Origin: Ilumatobacteraceae bacterium
GTDB taxonomy: Bacteria > Actinomycetota > Acidimicrobiia > Acidimicrobiales > Ilumatobacteraceae
Direction of reading: 5' to 3'
Assembly (NCBI GenBank): GCA_023262325.1
Contig: JALRBS010000170.1
Coordinates: 1-38,447 of the forward strand
Length of the DNA: 38,447 nt
Shown one piece after another: positions 21,603 through 30,881 of the stretch (positions within the stretch are counted from its first letter, which is position 1; every line of letters begins with the position of its first letter). The position numbers were made by a program, and so were the translations under genes. Under the pieces are notes generated by a model. It was not told the DNA's origin. It did no database searches and was given only the letters and a program-made list of their open reading frames with translations.

Positions 21603-22625
21603 TCAGGCTGAAGCGGCAGCTCGACCCGCCAACTCAACAAGGGTGACGCCAGGCTCCAACGGGAAGTGACACGCAACTGATTGACCGCCAGTCACCGTTC
21701 GCATCGCTGGCTCCTCGGTACGACAACGATCCTGCGCGATCGGACAACGGGTGTGGAAACGACACCCACTTGGCGGGTTGATCGGGCTTGGCACATCACC
21801 GGTCAACACAATTCGCTGTCGTGCTCGCTCAACTTCGGGATCTGGAACCGGAACTGCAGACAGCAATGCATGCGTATACGGGTGTGCCGGGTTCTCGTAG
21901 ATCGTCTCACTATCGCCAAGCTCGACGATCTTGCCGAGATACATCACGGCAATGCGATCACTTGTATGCCGCACAACCGAAAGGTCGTGCGCAATGAACA
22001 TGTAGGCGAGGTTGAGTTCGGTCTGAAGCTCGCCGAGCAGGTTGAGCACCTGCGCTTGGATGCTCACGTCCAATGCCGACACGGGCTCATCGAGAATGAG
22101 CAATGACGGATTCAACGCAAGCGCTCGAGCAATACCGATTCGCTGCCGTTGACCTCCCGAAAATTCATGCGGGTATCGGCGCGCATGGTCGGGCGACAGA
22201 CCAACGAGTTCGAGCAACTCGCGTACTCGCTGAGGATGGTCGCCACCGACCCGCTGGATCTCCAGCGGCTCAGCGATCGCCGCCTGAACGGTTCGCTTTG
22301 GGTCAAGCGATGCGAATGGATCCTGAAAGACGATTTGCATATCGCGTCGAAGCGCCCGAAGCCCATCAGACGACAGTCCGACAATTTCTTGACCTTTGAA
22401 CACAATGGAGCCTGCGGTCGGTTCAAGCAGACGAAGCACACAACGGCCAAGCGTTGTCTTACCCGAGCCGGACTCGCCGACAAGGCCGAGCGTCTCTCCG
22501 CTATCGACGGAGAACGACACGTTTGATACGGCCTGAACCTTCAGTTTCTGACTGCGAATCCCAAGGTTTCGACGAACGTCGAACTCTTTGACGAGCCCTT
22601 CGACCTGTAACAAGGTGTCAGCCAC
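21603..22625 (-). CDS. oppF: Oligopeptide ABC transporter ATP-binding protein (OppF/DppF type)
   Basis: This 340-residue ATPase is one of the two that power the oligopeptide/dipeptide importer. Walker [12 protein letters not shown], signature [15 protein letters not shown], Walker [13 protein letters not shown] and the C-terminal oligopeptide_HPY motif ([20 protein letters not shown]) are all present; the HPY domain can carry a 4Fe-4S cluster. The GTG start overlaps the oppD stop in GTGGCTGA. Its partner oppD has the other typical motif set. Confidence 0.95.
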
Positions 22626-23601
22626 GAGTGCCCACCTCCAACTGCAGTTCGTGCGAACGAATACACGCCGTCAATCCCGAACGACCCTCGCGAAGGTCAG
22701 GAATTTCAGCTGAGCACGCCGCTTGGGCGTGTGCGCAGCGAGGTGCAAACGCGCATCCTGGCGGCGGTTCAAGCATGTTCGGCGGCGAACCCGGAATCGG
22801 TTCGAGACGTTCACGACCGAGTGCCGGCAACGAGCGCATCAACCCCACTGTGTAAGGGTGCGACGGGGTATCGAACAGATTGGCAACGGTTGCCCGCTCA
22901 ACGGCTCGACCTGCGTACATGACCTCGACACGATCAACGACACGCGCAACGATCCCGAGGTCGTGCGTGATCAAGACGATCGCGGTGTCAAGCTCTTGGC
23001 GGATACGTTCGAGCACTTCGAGAATCTGCGCTTGCACCGTGACATCAAGCGCCGTCGTCGGCTCATCCGCAATAAGCAACTCGGGGTTGTTTGCGATTGC
23101 CATCGCAATCATCACACGTTGACGCATTCCACCAGAGAATTCGTGTGGGAACTGACGCGCCCGCTGGTCCGGCTGCGGAATGCCAACGATGTCGAGCAAC
23201 TCGATGACGCGCCGCTCACTCTCTTGTCGTGAGAGCGACTGGTGGGCACCGAGCATCTCTTCGATCTGCGCGCCGATGCGATGCACAGGGTTCAATGCTG
23301 ACAACGGATCCTGGAAAATCATGCTGATCTTTTGACCACGCACCGATCGCATTTTTCGATTCGACGCACCGACGAGTTCCTCACCGTTGATCTTCGCCGA
23401 GCCGCCGACGATGGCGGACTTTGGCAAGAGCCCCATCATGCCAAGGAAGGTCACCGACTTTCCGGAGCCAGACTCGCCGACAACGCCGACGAACTCGCCC
23501 GGATTCACATCGAGGGACAGACCACGAACTGCGCGAACGGTGCCGTACAGCGTGGGAAATGACACAGTGAAATCGCGCAATGAGAGAACAGAATCACTCA
23601 T
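22618..23601 (-). CDS. oppD: Oligopeptide ABC transporter ATP-binding protein (OppD/DppD type)
   Basis: This 327-residue ATPase of the peptide importer has Walker [15 protein letters not shown]-loop [10 protein letters not shown], signature [15 protein letters not shown], Walker [13 protein letters not shown] and the C-terminal HPY motif ([21 protein letters not shown]). The shape GMMGLLP after Walker A is typical of OppD/DppD. It starts 2 bp after the oppC stop. OppD pairs with OppF as the heterodimeric motor. Confidence 0.95.
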
Positions 23602-23603
23602 CG

Positions 23604-24581
23604 TCAGTTCCCCCTCTCAAGCCGTGGGTCGGTCGCGTCACGCAGGCCATCACCGATGAAGTTGACGCATAGGGCGACGATGCACAGCAGTCCGCAAGGA
23701 AAGATGACGAGCCACCAGTAGCCGGCGCTCACACCACCTTTTGCATCGGCGACAAGGAGTCCGAGCGACGTCTTTCCAGAACCAGCATCGGGACCAAAGC
23801 CAAAGAACGACAACGTCGCCTCACCGATGATGGCGCCGACGACCGTGCTCGTGAGCGCGACCAAGATCGGACCGATCGAGTTGGGCAGCAGGTGGCGGGT
23901 CACGATTCTGAAGTCCGACGCGCCCAGTGCGCGAGCCGCTTCGATGAATTCACGTTCCTTCAGTGCAATCACCGAGCCGCGAACGAGACGGGCGACACCC
24001 ATCCATCCAAAAATGACGAAGAGCAAAATAATGAATCGAATCGACGAACGATCACCGACAACGACCGTGACGAACTCAAGTTCGCCAAGGAAGCTACGAA
24101 CAATAAGAAGTGCCACAAGAAATGGGAACGCAAGGAAGATGTCGGTGACGCGCATCATGAGATCGTCGAAACGGCCACCTCGAAGTCCGGCAACTGCGCC
24201 GACTGCAACGCCGACAAGCGTGGAGAAAATTGCGGTGAACAGCCCGATGATGAGGGAGACTCGAAGGCTGTAAATCATTCGCGAATACACATCCCGACCA
24301 ATCGAGTCCGTACCGAACCAGGCTTCAGCCCTCGGCGGAAGATACGAGTTCGGACGACCCTTGACCGCCTCAAATATCGATTCGTTGATGCCATACCTCG
24401 TCGTGAACGGTGCGAGAACAACGATGATGACCATGATTGCCATGAGCACTGTCGAAATGACAGCGCCTTTGTGCTGCAAGTAACGCTTGACCGCCATCTG
24501 GGCTGGCGAGAGCGTTTTGGAGGTCAAACCTTCAGCGGCAATGCCGTTTTCAACAGCAACATTCGAAGTTTCAGTCGTCAT
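23604..24581 (-). CDS. oppC: Oligopeptide ABC transporter permease (OppC/DppC type)
   Basis: This 325-residue permease has an N-terminal OppC_N-type region with the first membrane helix VISTVLMAIMVIIVVLAPF, the GTDSIGRDVYSRMIYSLRVS signature that begins the permease domain, and the EAA coupling motif around FIEAARALGASDFRIVTRHLLPN. About six helices are present. The C-terminus ends GDGLRDATDPRLERGN, normal for DppC. It is 3 bp after oppB and 2 bp before oppD. Confidence 0.95.
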   Translation of the reverse strand: MTTETSNVAVENGIAAEGLTSKTLSPAQMAVKRYLQHKGAVISTVLMAIMVIIVVLAPFTTRYGINESIFEAVKGRPNSYLPPRAEAWFGTDSIGRDVYSRMIYSLRVSLIIGLFTAIFSTLVGVAVGAVAGLRGGRFDDLMMRVTDIFLAFPFLVALLIVRSFLGELEFVTVVVGDRSSIRFIILLFVIFGWMGVARLVRGSVIALKEREFIEAARALGASDFRIVTRHLLPNSIGPILVALTSTVVGAIIGEATLSFFGFGPDAGSGKTSLGLLVADAKGGVSAGYWWLVIFPCGLLCIVALCVNFIGDGLRDATDPRLERGN

Positions 24582-24584
24582 GGT

Positions 24585-25586
24585 TCATCCAACTCGAATA
24601 CGTGGGTCAAGCCAGGCATAGGAAATGTCGGCGATGAGGTTGAAGATGACTACGGCAAGAACGATGATGACCATGAACGGCATCAACTGCGGGAAGTCAC
24701 CGTTATCGAACGCGGTTAAGAAGAAGTCGCCCATACCTGGATACGAGAAGACTCGTTCGGTAATGATGAGACCACCGATAATTCCACCAATGTCAATTGC
24801 GGCGATGGTGACAAGCGGAATCAACGAGTTGCGAACCGCGTGACCAACGAGCACTCGTCGCTCACTAATCCCCTTCGAACGTGCGGTGCGCATGAAGTCG
24901 CTGTTCAGCACGTCAAGGAGCGACGCTCGCATATATCTCGCATACACCGCAATGATTTGAATAGCGACAACGAAAACCGGAAGCACCATGTGCTTCATCA
25001 TGAGCAATAAATCAAATCCTTGTTGTCCCGGTGGGTACACCCCGGAGGTTGGAAGCAAAGGGTCGCCGTACCAACGGCTCCACATGACAGCAAACAGCAG
25101 CTGCAGCAAGACGGCAGAGACATATGGCGGAATGCTGAAGGCAACAAAGGCACCTGTGTTCACGCTCGAGTCACGCAGGCTGCCAGGGCGAAGTGCCGCA
25201 AAAATGCCGAGCAGGACGCCGATGAAAATTCCGAGCACCGATGCTGCAATGCCGAGACGAAGCGAGTTCGCCATTGCGTACTTCATCTCAGGCCAGACCT
25301 CGCGGCGACCCTTGATACTTCGTGGCCAACTTTCGCCACCATTGAAAAGTCCTGCGAAGAAGTTGCGAAGCCAACCCCAGTAGCCCTTGAAGTAGCCGCT
25401 CACGCCAGGGAACAGGTTGTTGATCTCCTCGTACTGTCGAATTTTTTCTTCGTTCGCTCGAGGATTCGACCGCTGATAGGCCTCGGACGGGTTCGTACCA
25501 AGACGGATAGCGACATAGACCAAAAAGGTGACAATGAGAATTGTTGGAACTGCCCACAGCAGTCTGCGCAAGACAAATCGAAGCAT
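24585..25586 (-). CDS. oppB: Oligopeptide ABC transporter permease (OppB/DppB type)
   Basis: This permease has 333 residues from the ATG at 25586 (MLRFVLRRLLWAVPTILIV); a GTG four codons upstream is also possible. The first helix carries the family's typical start, followed by a longer-than-usual extracytoplasmic segment rich in charged and aromatic residues (about residues 40-105, with FPGVSGYFKGYWGWLRNFFA). The permease domain shows the EAA-like motif DFMRTARSKGISERRVLVGHAVRNSLIP and ends AWLDPRIRVG. It forms the translocation pore with OppC. The gap between it and oppA contains two strong hairpins. Confidence 0.95.
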   Translation of the reverse strand: MLRFVLRRLLWAVPTILIVTFLVYVAIRLGTNPSEAYQRSNPRANEEKIRQYEEINNLFPGVSGYFKGYWGWLRNFFAGLFNGGESWPRSIKGRREVWPEMKYAMANSLRLGIAASVLGIFIGVLLGIFAALRPGSLRDSSVNTGAFVAFSIPPYVSAVLLQLLFAVMWSRWYGDPLLPTSGVYPPGQQGFDLLLMMKHMVLPVFVVAIQIIAVYARYMRASLLDVLNSDFMRTARSKGISERRVLVGHAVRNSLIPLVTIAAIDIGGIIGGLIITERVFSYPGMGDFFLTAFDNGDFPQLMPFMVIIVLAVVIFNLIADISYAWLDPRIRVG

Positions 25587-25653
25587 TGTTACCACCACAA
25601 GAGAGCGTTAAGAACGCTCGAAACGTTTACATACACGGGTACCAGTTCACAAG

Positions 25654-25689: not shown

Positions 25690-25721
25690 AGTGGTCCCGC
25701 CGGCAAACCGGCGGGACCACT
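25690..25721 (-). terminator. First hairpin after oppA
   Basis: A perfect 14-bp GC-rich stem (arms 25690-25703 and 25708-25721) closes a 4-base CAAA loop, 20 bases after the oppA stop. Together with the next hairpin it probably reduces read-through into oppB or protects the oppA mRNA, as is common after binding-protein genes that must be made in excess. Confidence 0.65.
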
Positions 25722-25741: not shown

Positions 25742-27535
25742 TTACAGGACTTCTGCTGTCCACGACTCGAGGAGCGGGCTCTCGACGAACGCCTGGTCGT
25801 CTGTGGTGTCCCACAAACCTGGCTGCACAACTGCTGCAACCGTCCAGACGTACCACGATGAGTTCGCGCACTCGGTGACCGGGTTGAGGCACTCTGGCCA
25901 CTGCTCGGCACCGATAACGATCTGGCCGTCGCCGTCAAGATCTTCCCAGAGCGGCATGCTCGGGACGTATCCGACGTAGTTGGCGGTGTTCGCCGACATT
26001 TCTGCCGACGGACCGACCTGATCGCTCCTCCACAGGAACGAGTTCGGGAACTGGAAGAGTGGGGTCATGACGAAGTCGTCGGCCATCATCTGGATCGCAT
26101 CCTTGATGAGCGTTGCACGAGCGGCTGCGTCAGTCGTCACGTCGGCCTCGGTCAACATTGCCGAAGCCTCTTCGTTGCACCAACCCTGGGAGTTCTGACC
26201 GGCGTAGCCGTTGTCCTCCGTCGGGACGGCGTCACAGATGAAGCTTCCGGTCAGGTAGCCGGGGTCTGGTGACGGGACCGAAATGTACATGGCCATGTCG
26301 TAGTCGAGGGCTGGGAGGCGCTGCTGGAAGTAGCAGGCAGCATCACAGTTGTCAGGGACAACCTTGAAGCCGAGTTCTGCCAACTTCGGAATGAGGAACG
26401 CCTGGGTGCTCTCACGACGGCCGTTGCCGGTGTTGATGATCCAACGGACTTCAGGCACCTCACCGGTGTCTGGGTTCACCCAGAATCCGTCGGCGTCCTG
26501 GGTCCAGCCTTCGCTCGACAGCAGGTCAGCTGCGCCTTCTGGGTCGTAGATGTCCTGGAATGGAGCGGTTGCCGGGTCACAGTATGGGCCAGGAACGATC
26601 GGGCCACAGGTGAGCGCCTCAGTGTCTGCGCCACCGATCGGGACGTAGATCTGCTGAATGACGGCCTCGCGGTCGATCGAACGAGCGAACGCCTCGCGGT
26701 AGACATCATTGGCAAATGGGCCGTCGTACTGGCTGTCGACCTTGCCACCCTGCTGGAAGTAGAAGCCCTCGTACATGGCGCCTGGGCGAACGTCGAGTCC
26801 GATCGCTGAGTCAGCCTCAGCAACTTCACGGAATGACGGATCCCACTGTGGCGAGATGAAGTCGACTTCACCAGAGGCGATAGCGGCCTGCTCGGTCTCG
26901 AAGTCAGCGAGCGGAACGGCCACGATCTTCGAGGTCACAGGAGCGTCGCCCCAGTAGTTCTCGTTTGGTTCGTAGACGACCTGAGTCGGCGACCACTCGG
27001 TGATCTTGTATGGGCGACCAGATGCAGGCCATGCATCGTCAAAGTCGAGCGACACGTCGTTGCAATCGTCATGCATCGAAGCCATCAACAACCCACCGAA
27101 CAAGGTTCGGAACGGTGCGTAGACCGAAGCGAAGTACACGACGCCTTGCTTGTCACTGGAACCCTGTACGACGTCGATGATCTGGTCGTAACCGACCGTG
27201 CTCAACGAGCCTGGGGTGTTCATTGCCGCTTGCCATGTGCAAATCATGTCGGCGACAGTGATTGGGCTGCCATCCTCCCAAACTGCGTCTGGGTGAAGGT
27301 TGACGGTGTAGACCATCGCCGTGCCATCCGGTGCCGCAGCTGGTTCTGCCGCAGGCTCATCAGCTGGTGCATCTGCTGGCTCGTCGGCCGGCTCATCTGC
27401 TGGCTCGTCGGCCGGAGCCTCTGCCGCCGGCTCGTCGGCCGGCGCATCTGCGGTGTCGCTACCACCACACGACGCTGCGATGAATGACATCGCAGCGACG
27501 GCGGCGATCACACGACCGCGCCTGTTCTTTCTCAT
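25742..27535 (-). CDS. oppA: Peptide-binding lipoprotein, apparently circularly permuted
   Basis: This 597-residue family 5 substrate-binding lipoprotein of the peptide importer carries a lipobox SFIAASC with the acylated C23. Residues 24-68 are a repetitive Ala/Asp/Glu/Pro linker. The folded part begins PDGTAMVYTVNLHPDAVWEDGSP (split here as PDGTAMVYTV and DAVWEDGSPIT), which in other family members is preceded by about 60 residues containing a first beta strand, an E-W/P-ECLNP motif and a terminal LLESW. Here that segment (QIVIGAEQWPECLNP to PLLESWTAEVL) is the last 60 residues, encoded at 25745-25924. The order of all other segments is normal. An AAGGAGG Shine-Dalgarno lies 9 bp before the chosen ATG; a GTG one codon earlier is possible. 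Confidence 0.9.
   Translation of the reverse strand: MRKNRRGRVIAAVAAMSFIAASCGGSDTADAPADEPAAEAPADEPADEPADEPADAPADEPAAEPAAAPDGTAMVYTVNLHPDAVWEDGSPITVADMICTWQAAMNTPGSLSTVGYDQIIDVVQGSSDKQGVVYFASVYAPFRTLFGGLLMASMHDDCNDVSLDFDDAWPASGRPYKITEWSPTQVVYEPNENYWGDAPVTSKIVAVPLADFETEQAAIASGEVDFISPQWDPSFREVAEADSAIGLDVRPGAMYEGFYFQQGGKVDSQYDGPFANDVYREAFARSIDREAVIQQIYVPIGGADTEALTCGPIVPGPYCDPATAPFQDIYDPEGAADLLSSEGWTQDADGFWVNPDTGEVPEVRWIINTGNGRRESTQAFLIPKLAELGFKVVPDNCDAACYFQQRLPALDYDMAMYISVPSPDPGYLTGSFICDAVPTEDNGYAGQNSQGWCNEEASAMLTEADVTTDAAARATLIKDAIQMMADDFVMTPLFQFPNSFLWRSDQVGPSAEMSANTANYVGYVPSMPLWEDLDGDGQIVIGAEQWPECLNPVTECANSSWYVWTVAAVVQPGLWDTTDDQAFVESPLLESWTAEVL
27371..27442. repeat. 24-bp in-frame tandem repeat in the oppA linker
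   Basis: A 21-bp sequence at 27371-27391 is repeated exactly at 27395-27415, with a 14-bp partial copy at 27429-27442. The period of 24 bp encodes eight residues of the PADEPADE-type linker, so changes in copy number would keep the reading frame. Confidence 0.75.
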
Positions 27536-29048: not shown

Positions 29049-30881
29049 GTGAGTGCTGCCACAATCGTGCGTATGACTGACGTCGTCGATACCGATCTTG
29101 CTGCTAGCGAAATCTCGTGGGACCTCGACGGGCTCCTTAATGAAGTCGGGGGGCGTGATGCGATGGCGCTTATTGACAAGGCACGTGGCATCGCCGACGA
29201 ACTCCAGACATTTAAGGGACGCATTTCCCAGCTTGACTCAGGCGAACTCGCCTCACTGATGCACCGGCTCGCCGAGCTTTCTGATCTCGTGAGCCGAGCC
29301 GGACATTTCACCTCGCTGAAGTTCTCCGAGAACACGTCCGATCCGGTCGTCGCCGCCGACATGCAGCAGGTCAATGAGCAGTCAACGGCAATCTCAACAC
29401 GACTCCTATTTATTGATCTTGAGTGGTCGGCAACGTCGGATGACCATGCGTCGACGGTGCTCGCTGATGAACGGCTCGACTTCTGTCGTCACCATCTTGA
29501 GAACCTTCGGAAGTACCAGCCATACCAGCTCACTGAACCCGAGGAAACAGTGCTCAGCGAGACATCGCTTGCTGGTTCACAAGCGTGGGTTCGACTCTTC
29601 GAAGAACAGACCGCTGCAATCGAAGTCGATCTTGACGATGACATGGGTGGACGCGTCAGCCTCATGACAGCGCTTTCGCACCTTCACGATCCGAGCGGCA
29701 GTCGGCGCGAACGAGCGGCCCAGGCGGTGACGAAGGCGCTCGAACCGGGACTTCGCACGCGAGCCTTCATCTACAACACATTGCTGCTCGATAAGTCGGT
29801 CGATGACCGCCTCAGGGGATACCCAAGTTGGATTTCGAGTCGAAATATGGCGAACGAAGCAAGCGACGAGAGCGTCGAAGCCCTTATTTCCGCCGTCGTC
29901 GCTCGCTACGACATTCCGCAACGTTGGTACTCACTCAAGGCGCAGGTGCTCGGTGTGGATCGACTTCGTGACTTTGATCGCATGGCATCGGTCGCTGAGA
30001 GCGAGTCGACAATCGGCTGGGCTGAGGGAACACGGATCGTGCGTGACGCGTACGAAAGTTTTTCTCCCGAACTCGCAAGCATCGTCGGACGATTTATCGA
30101 TGAACGCTGGATCGATGCACCAGTTCGACCAGGAAAGCGCGGCGGTGCATTCTGCGCGTACGCAACGCCGAGCCACCACCCATATGTGTTGCTTAATTGG
30201 ACCTCGACCGCTCGCGACGTGGCGACACTCGCGCATGAACTTGGCCATGGTGTGCACGGCTATCTCGCACGTGAACAAGGCATTTTTCACCAGTCGACAC
30301 CGCTCACCCTCGCCGAAACGGCCTCGGTGTTCGGCGAAACCGTGACAAATAACCGACTGCTCTCGATGCTGAGTGATCCTGCCGAGAAATTCTCCCTGCT
30401 CGCTTCGACCCTCGAGGACTCGATTGCAACCGTGTTCCGCCAAGTGGCGATGAATCGATTCGAGCACGCCTGCCACACCGAGCGACGCGAGGTTGGAGAA
30501 CTCTCCGTCGCACGCTTTGGCGAACTCTGGGCCCAGTCCCAAGAGGCGATGCTCGGGTCATCAGTTGAGGTGACCGATGGCTACCGCACCTGGTGGAGTT
30601 ACATCCCACACTTCATCGCAACACCCGGATACGTGTACGCGTATGCATACGGACAACTCCTCGCACTCAGTGTCTACGCCCAGTACGAAACGCACGGCGA
30701 GAGTTTCGTTCCGGCCTATCTCGACATGTTGCGTTCAGGCGGTTCGATGCTTCCAGAAGATCTCACGCGAATCGTCGGGTGCGACCTCACCGACCCCGGA
30801 TTTTGGTCGGCAGGACTCGACATTGTCGAGCAGCAACTCGACCGAGCAACTCACGCAGCAACCGCAGCCGGACGCATCTGA
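29049..30881 (+). CDS. M3 family oligoendopeptidase F
   Basis: This 610-residue zinc metallopeptidase of family M3 (oligoendopeptidase F type) cleaves short peptides in the cytoplasm. The zinc site is intact: H396, E397 and H400 in AHELGHGVHG and the third ligand E423 in LTLAETASVFGE. The N-terminal helical region (about 1-190) and the C-terminal block YGQLLALSVYAQYE are typical. The start is set at a GTG at 29049 because a GGAAGG sequence sits 5 bases upstream; an ATG eight codons later (29073) is the alternative. It lies beside the peptide import genes, although on the opposite strand, and could degrade the imported peptides. Confidence 0.93.
   Translation: MSAATIVRMTDVVDTDLAASEISWDLDGLLNEVGGRDAMALIDKARGIADELQTFKGRISQLDSGELASLMHRLAELSDLVSRAGHFTSLKFSENTSDPVVAADMQQVNEQSTAISTRLLFIDLEWSATSDDHASTVLADERLDFCRHHLENLRKYQPYQLTEPEETVLSETSLAGSQAWVRLFEEQTAAIEVDLDDDMGGRVSLMTALSHLHDPSGSRRERAAQAVTKALEPGLRTRAFIYNTLLLDKSVDDRLRGYPSWISSRNMANEASDESVEALISAVVARYDIPQRWYSLKAQVLGVDRLRDFDRMASVAESESTIGWAEGTRIVRDAYESFSPELASIVGRFIDERWIDAPVRPGKRGGAFCAYATPSHHPYVLLNWTSTARDVATLAHELGHGVHGYLAREQGIFHQSTPLTLAETASVFGETVTNNRLLSMLSDPAEKFSLLASTLEDSIATVFRQVAMNRFEHACHTERREVGELSVARFGELWAQSQEAMLGSSVEVTDGYRTWWSYIPHFIATPGYVYAYAYGQLLALSVYAQYETHGESFVPAYLDMLRSGGSMLPEDLTRIVGCDLTDPGFWSAGLDIVEQQLDRATHAATAAGRI

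Follow-up and report, generated by a model that had tools for sequence, protein, structure and literature searches.

In published structures of family 5 solute-binding proteins (cluster C, which includes OppA, DppA and NikA; PF00496), the chain opens with 33–35 residues of domain I before it enters domain II (PMC5736914; PMC11192437). This first stretch covers residues 30–62 in BbOppA4, whose chain starts at residue 30, and residues 29–63 in AliD, with domain II following at 63–186 and 64–190, respectively (PMC5736914; PMC11192437). Natural circular permutation has been described in a binding protein of a different class: TpMglB-2 (Tp0684), from Treponema pallidum and its relatives, is a permuted lipoprotein of type Ic (cluster Bc), and its authors proposed that tethering might favor such a permutation (PMC4990184). 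The saposin/swaposin pair and DNA methyltransferases illustrate permutation by tandem duplication, fusion and loss of the redundant ends (PMC3320104). Full-text searches of the open-access literature found no report of natural permutation in family 5, and TpMglB-2 was the only permuted binding protein that they returned.

We analyzed a 38,447-nucleotide stretch of DNA (the window) encoding P0001, a circularly permuted family 5 protein that is a member by homology but lacks the canonical chain start. P0001 shares with family 5 its core fold, a Pfam score, the lipoprotein form and oppBCDF partners. It differs in that the opening ∼60 residues are C-terminal, the termini would lie in domain II and the old termini are fused through a Dx[DN]xDG motif. 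The nearest solved protein is Mycobacterium tuberculosis OppA (Rv1280c; 8j5q–8j5u), which has the same core fold with Z scores of 26–27 over ∼430 residues. Like P0001, TpMglB-2 is membrane tethered and clade-wide, and has part of its N-terminal region (N-lobe strands) moved to the C terminus (PMC4990184). Unlike P0001, it has the type I/cluster B sugar-binding fold, in which the move involves three N-lobe strands and creates a fourth hinge crossing, and its moved part is poorly conserved (PMC4990184), whereas that of P0001 is ∼43%–56% identical to its counterpart in normal-order relatives. P0001 falls outside type Ic/cluster Bc, as both its profile match and its best-scoring fold matches are to family 5 (cluster C).

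The P0001 Gene and Its Operon

The P0001 open reading frame (ORF) runs on the minus strand from an ATG at 27535 to a stop codon at 25742–25744 (Table 1). The product scores 145.2 bits against PF00496 (SBP_bac_5), above the curated cut-off of 32.4 bits. The lipobox and the oppBCDF partners of Gram-positive family 5 members are both present, the latter directly 3′ of the gene, and Cys23 is invariant among 30 aligned proteins. A first-pass annotation, made from the letters and their translations, had described a lipoprotein with an Ala/Asp/Glu/Pro linker and a mature part starting at PDGTAM, about residue 69; the frame, its coordinates and these motifs were confirmed, with 597 residues, an AASC lipobox and PDGTAM at residues 69–74. 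After the tether the chain continues DGTAMVYTVNLHPDAVWEDGSPIT, a block that in family 5 binding proteins is normally preceded by an opening segment of ∼60 residues. In P0001 this segment is the extreme C terminus and reads QIVIGAEQWPECLNP...LLESWTAEVL (for residues 538–597, also written QIVIGAEQWPECLNPVTECANSSW...LLESWTAEVL). The core segments are in normal family order, with strand 74–80 as the new N-terminal edge.

Table 1. Features of the P0001 Locus, in Window Coordinates
Feature	Position	Strand	Basis or remark
Circularly permuted family 5 solute-binding lipoprotein (OppA-type), P0001, 597 aa	25742..27535	-	ORF; PF00496, 145 bits; first gene of oppABCDF
Signal peptide with lipobox AAS-C, lipidated Cys23	27467..27535	-	Sequence
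Low-complexity Ala/Asp/Glu/Pro tether, residues 24–68	27332..27466	-	pLDDT < 50 up to residue 61
Core, residues 70–531 (rest of domain II, domain III, remaining domain I)	25943..27328	-	HMM and structure alignment
Dx[DN]xDG loop DLDGDG, residues 532–537, joint of old C terminus and old N terminus	25925..25942	-	Putative Ca2+ site
Moved opening segment, residues 538–597	25745..25924	-	Domain I first strand and helix, domain II start
14-bp G+C-rich hairpin in the gap between the P0001 gene and oppB	25690..25721	-	Fold z −5.4
oppB-like permease	24585..25598	-	PF00528
oppC-like permease	23604..24581	-	PF00528 and OppC_N
oppD-like ATPase	22618..23601	-	ABC_tran and oligo_HPY
oppF-like ATPase	21603..22625	-	ABC_tran and oligo_HPY
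M3-family oligoendopeptidase close to the opp operon	29049..30881	+	TIGR02290/Peptidase_M3

Several minor features accompany the gene. The hairpin downstream of P0001 is of the type that allows a binding protein to be produced at higher levels than its permease. The M3 oligoendopeptidase is consistent with peptide use, and a gene for an MFS transporter also lies near the operon. P0001 has four conserved cysteine pairs (310/319, 397/401, 434/453 and 549/556), which are likely disulfides; the last of these is within the moved segment.

Evidence for the Permuted Order

The order of segments was probed with a profile built from 30 normal-order proteins. Native P0001 gives two matches in swapped order, one covering profile positions 75–505 (336 bits) and the other positions 5–59 (60 bits). 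Moving the last 60 residues to the front, as the first-pass annotation had proposed, yields a single contiguous match (positions 5–503, 407 bits). The same rotation produced one contiguous match in all 60 permuted proteins to which it was applied, with a mean gain of 71.4 bits (range 34–81), and rotations placed 60–200 residues off scored lower on average. Native P0001 enters the Pfam SBP_bac_5 profile only at position 16; the rotated protein enters it at position 6. The rotated sequence also aligns through the seam to solved family 5 proteins (residues 2–495 to 18–473 of 5isu). Single-sequence gains against the PDB are small, about 1–6 bits, and the argument for permutation therefore rests on the profile of close relatives. 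In normal-order relatives the equivalent segment of ∼55 residues precedes the core and is 43%–56% identical to that of P0001 (E values down to 5e-13). The position of the seam corresponds to a loop that is variable among normal proteins.

The same order recurs widely in related genomes. A scan taking one genome per species gave 75 loci, of which ∼50 align to P0001 with its segment order retained (46%–71% identity), some interrupted by contig ends, and ∼20 give split matches in which the C-terminal part of P0001 comes first, which is the normal order. With separate profiles for the core (residues 73–522) and the moved segment (residues 536–593), 64 ORFs, mostly from independent metagenome-assembled genomes (MAGs), read core-then-segment, 30 read segment-then-core and none was mixed. 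Three further ORFs were left unassigned by profile; inspection shows two of them, L103 and L104, to have the normal order. No ORF in this set carried two matches to the moved segment, or a segment at both ends. The first-pass annotation had placed the 60-residue opening segment at the extreme C terminus with all else in normal order and had suggested looking for the same arrangement in relatives; the swapped matches and order profiles bear out both points. Its wider claim, that a family 5 binding lipoprotein has been circularly permuted, agrees with the profiles, trees, synteny and models alike.

Phylogeny and Genomic Setting

Trees were built by quick searches with SH-aLRT support. On the tree of core sequences, permuted and normal proteins are separated by one change with support of 100 in two data sets. 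The OppB tree has a concordant split, with 50 permuted and 32 normal rows and support of 100. Several independent origins of the permutation are thus unnecessary. Among the genomes sampled (395 from the class, 121 from the family and 396 from the phylum), permuted genes were found only in the window's family, which we take to be Ilumatobacteraceae. A search of the 396 phylum genomes with the joint gave joint-spanning matches only in this family; the remaining matches covered the segment half only, or almost only. Judged by these sequences, the permuted order is clade-wide, of single origin and not peculiar to the window's genome; the clade that carries it is a group of aquatic (lake) actinobacteria.

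Many permuted and normal genes lie directly after pgk-tpiA; the operon in the window is located elsewhere. The presence of both orders after pgk-tpiA indicates that the permuted gene occupies an old slot of the class, and the sharing of this slot with normal-order operons suggests that it probably arose in place. The nearest normal-order OppB to the permuted clade, that of L110, is also at pgk-tpiA. What follows tpiA (L121–L140) varies among genera of the family, and even within genus g11, between distinct opp operons and other genes. Exchange of operons may therefore have contributed to the history of this slot. The view of permuted and normal pgk-tpiA genes as simple one-to-one orthologs is weakened by the distant opp operons or other genes found there in several genera.

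A tandem pair of normal-order binding-protein genes, ∼60 bp apart, heads the opp operon in L061 (2629–4497 and 4558–6366) and in L067, which shows that the duplication needed for the permutation does occur. Permutation by duplication is the likeliest route; no intermediate was found among the ORFs, and in this the lineage differs from saposin/swaposin and the DNA methyltransferases, for which the same route has been proposed (PMC3320104).

Predicted Structure and the Position of the Termini

An AlphaFold2 model of the permuted protein was built from 30 sequences, all of them permuted (pLDDT 82.5, pTM 0.79); a model of the normal-order relative L108 has a pLDDT of 89.1 and a pTM of 0.87. The permuted model has strands at residues 74–80, 539–543 and 589–596 and a helix at 560–570. 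Its last 30 residues have a pLDDT of 90–94, and residues 554–559 are below 50. Taking the segment's first strand as the origin, the helix begins at +21 in the permuted and +22 in the normal protein, and the next two strands follow at +36/+37 and +44/+45 (permuted/normal). A sequential aligner superposes residues 67–533 of the permuted model on DppA 54–507 (Z 25.0) and residues 44–564 of the normal model on DppA 1–507 (Z 37.3). The stretch of DppA lost from the permuted alignment is the one that the moved segment should fill, and secondary structure and model confidence together suggest, indirectly, that residues 538–597 would occupy the old N-terminal position in space. The permuted model also aligns with many other family 5 structures, with Z scores of up to 26.9 over 430 residues.

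The old termini belong to domain I and are now fused. The first-pass annotation had expected the new termini to be in domain I as well; here the match to DppA 54–507 and the domain boundaries of BbOppA4 point elsewhere. Since the opening domain I stretch is 33–35 residues long, a cut near DppA residue 54 would be ∼20 residues inside domain II and, by length, the new termini of P0001 are placed there. It would follow that the lipid anchor has shifted to another domain.

In OppA, Asp419 provides the docking site for the amino group of the peptide. The loop that likely corresponds to it has the sequence T-A-P-P-D-P in most relatives, and D424 of P0001 is a candidate for the Asp419 position.

A Putative Calcium Loop at the Joint

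The joint links the old C-terminal Trp to the first strand, and here a Dx[DN]xDG-type motif, with G or R in its last place, is found in 62 of 64 permuted proteins and in none of 30 normal ones. In P0001, residues 532–539 (DLDGDGQI) fit Dx[DN]xDGx[ILV]. Columns 532, 534, 536 and 537 are nearly invariant, even in the divergent orphan proteins described below, among which L002 carries an R at position 537. Calcium loops of the Dx[DN]xDG type are EF-hand-like and occur typically in proteins outside the cytoplasm (PMC3123361). The loop of P0001 resembles these in pattern and extracytoplasmic setting, but is located where the old ends of a permuted receptor meet, and is a putative Ca2+ site; by its sequence it is probably a Ca2+-binding clamp. 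The early-branching permuted members L057 and L091 have only a short GDT-type turn at the joint. From their lack of the motif, we infer that the calcium-type motif was probably gained after the permutation, and its pairing with the joint suggests stepwise stabilization.

Proposed Model and Alternative Explanations

We are highly confident that P0001 is the permuted OppA-type receptor lipoprotein of an Opp importer, with a single origin, likely in situ through duplication and trimming. The part relocated to the C terminus is the opening segment, made up of the first domain I strand and helix together with the first strands of domain II. Past the lipobox and tether, the chain would start at strand two of a domain II hairpin and would end with strand one of the same hairpin. 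The old domain I termini are linked by a short loop, to which the Dx[DN]xDG motif, a probable Ca2+ clamp, was later added. The usual bilobed receptor fold is expected, with peptides or similar solutes captured outside the membrane and passed to OppBCDF, and the lipid anchor would suspend the receptor by domain II in place of domain I. The change would have happened once, most likely in place, within a single family of Acidimicrobiia: in an ancestral genome the gene for the binding protein would have been duplicated in tandem and fused, and would then have shed its redundant ends.

A chimera of tandem genes or a mis-joined repeat could mimic a permutation, and the window's assembly is in 221 contigs; tandem normal-order binding-protein genes do exist in relatives (L061, L067). 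However, the order and seam recur at 46%–71% identity in ∼50 loci from many projects, including low-contig assemblies (G036, 7 contigs). The window's genome also encodes a second permuted protein, L002 (1462–3246), only 31% identical to P0001, which excludes a local assembly error. Given this recurrence in other MAGs and the paralog in the same genome, we reject an artefact of assembly or binning, to which we attach a negligible probability. It is also very improbable that a neighboring binding-protein gene supplied the C-terminal segment as an additional copy and that the true N-terminal segment lies unrecognized in the linker. The linker is variable, with 40–50 residues in many relatives, but it is of low complexity with a pLDDT below 50, and in L056 the lipidated Cys and the core are separated by only some two dozen residues. 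The spacing of secondary structure in the C-terminal segment is that of a normal N terminus, and the absence of any ORF with two copies led us to reject an extra rather than a moved segment.

Two further possibilities accept the permutation as real. In one, residues 538–597 would complete a neighboring molecule by three-dimensional domain swapping, giving an obligate dimer at the membrane. AliC, another family 5 protein, is known to form a swapped dimer by exchanging whole lobes (PMC11192437); in P0001, however, the single-chain model is confident over most of the segment and the joint leads straight into the domain I strand, and we regard swapping as improbable. The other concerns the route: the permuted operon may have arisen elsewhere and replaced a normal-order pgk-tpiA operon by recombination. 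The varied contents of that slot among genera of the family, even within g11, favor such a replacement, but the pgk-tpiA location of the nearest normal-order OppB and the agreement of the binding-protein and OppB trees on one permuted clade argue for the origin in place that we prefer. Replacement is the most serious of these alternatives, although still unlikely.

We consider a broader statement about as likely as not: that this is the first natural permutation in cluster C, fixed in a clade, with the anchor moved from domain I to domain II and a post-permutation calcium loop clamping the fused old termini, so that docking to an Opp-type permease would require neither a set chain order nor a set anchor position. 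The first-pass annotation had called the arrangement perhaps undescribed, which stands for family 5 in the open-access literature and fails for binding proteins at large, given the published permutation of TpMglB-2 (PMC4990184). It is rare for a natural permutation to have arisen once and to have close unpermuted relatives that share its partners and often its slot. By comparing permuted with normal receptors, one can ask directly whether anchor position and chain order influence closure around the ligand and its transfer to the permease; the pair is a natural experiment on how much rewiring nutrient-capturing receptors tolerate. There is also a warning for annotation, as the Pfam model covers only the middle of the permuted proteins.

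Divergent and Probably Mislabeled Members

L002 is one of a set of fast-evolving permuted orphans that follow pgk-tpiA in eight genomes of the window's genus (L002 and L095–L101). On the core tree their stem is 1.5 changes per site. No oppBCDF genes were found beside them in the stretches examined, and they may feed another permease. The MAGs of L017, L046 and L051, labeled Bifidobacterium breve or Acidimicrobium ferrooxidans, carry the permuted gene and group with Ilumatobacteraceae; these labels look wrong. In L092, a 793-residue ORF on the minus strand encodes a permuted protein with opp genes absent nearby. Its frame runs upstream into apparent Hsp70-like sequence and then a segment resembling a membrane span, an extension that is either a fused anchor or an artefact of the start site.
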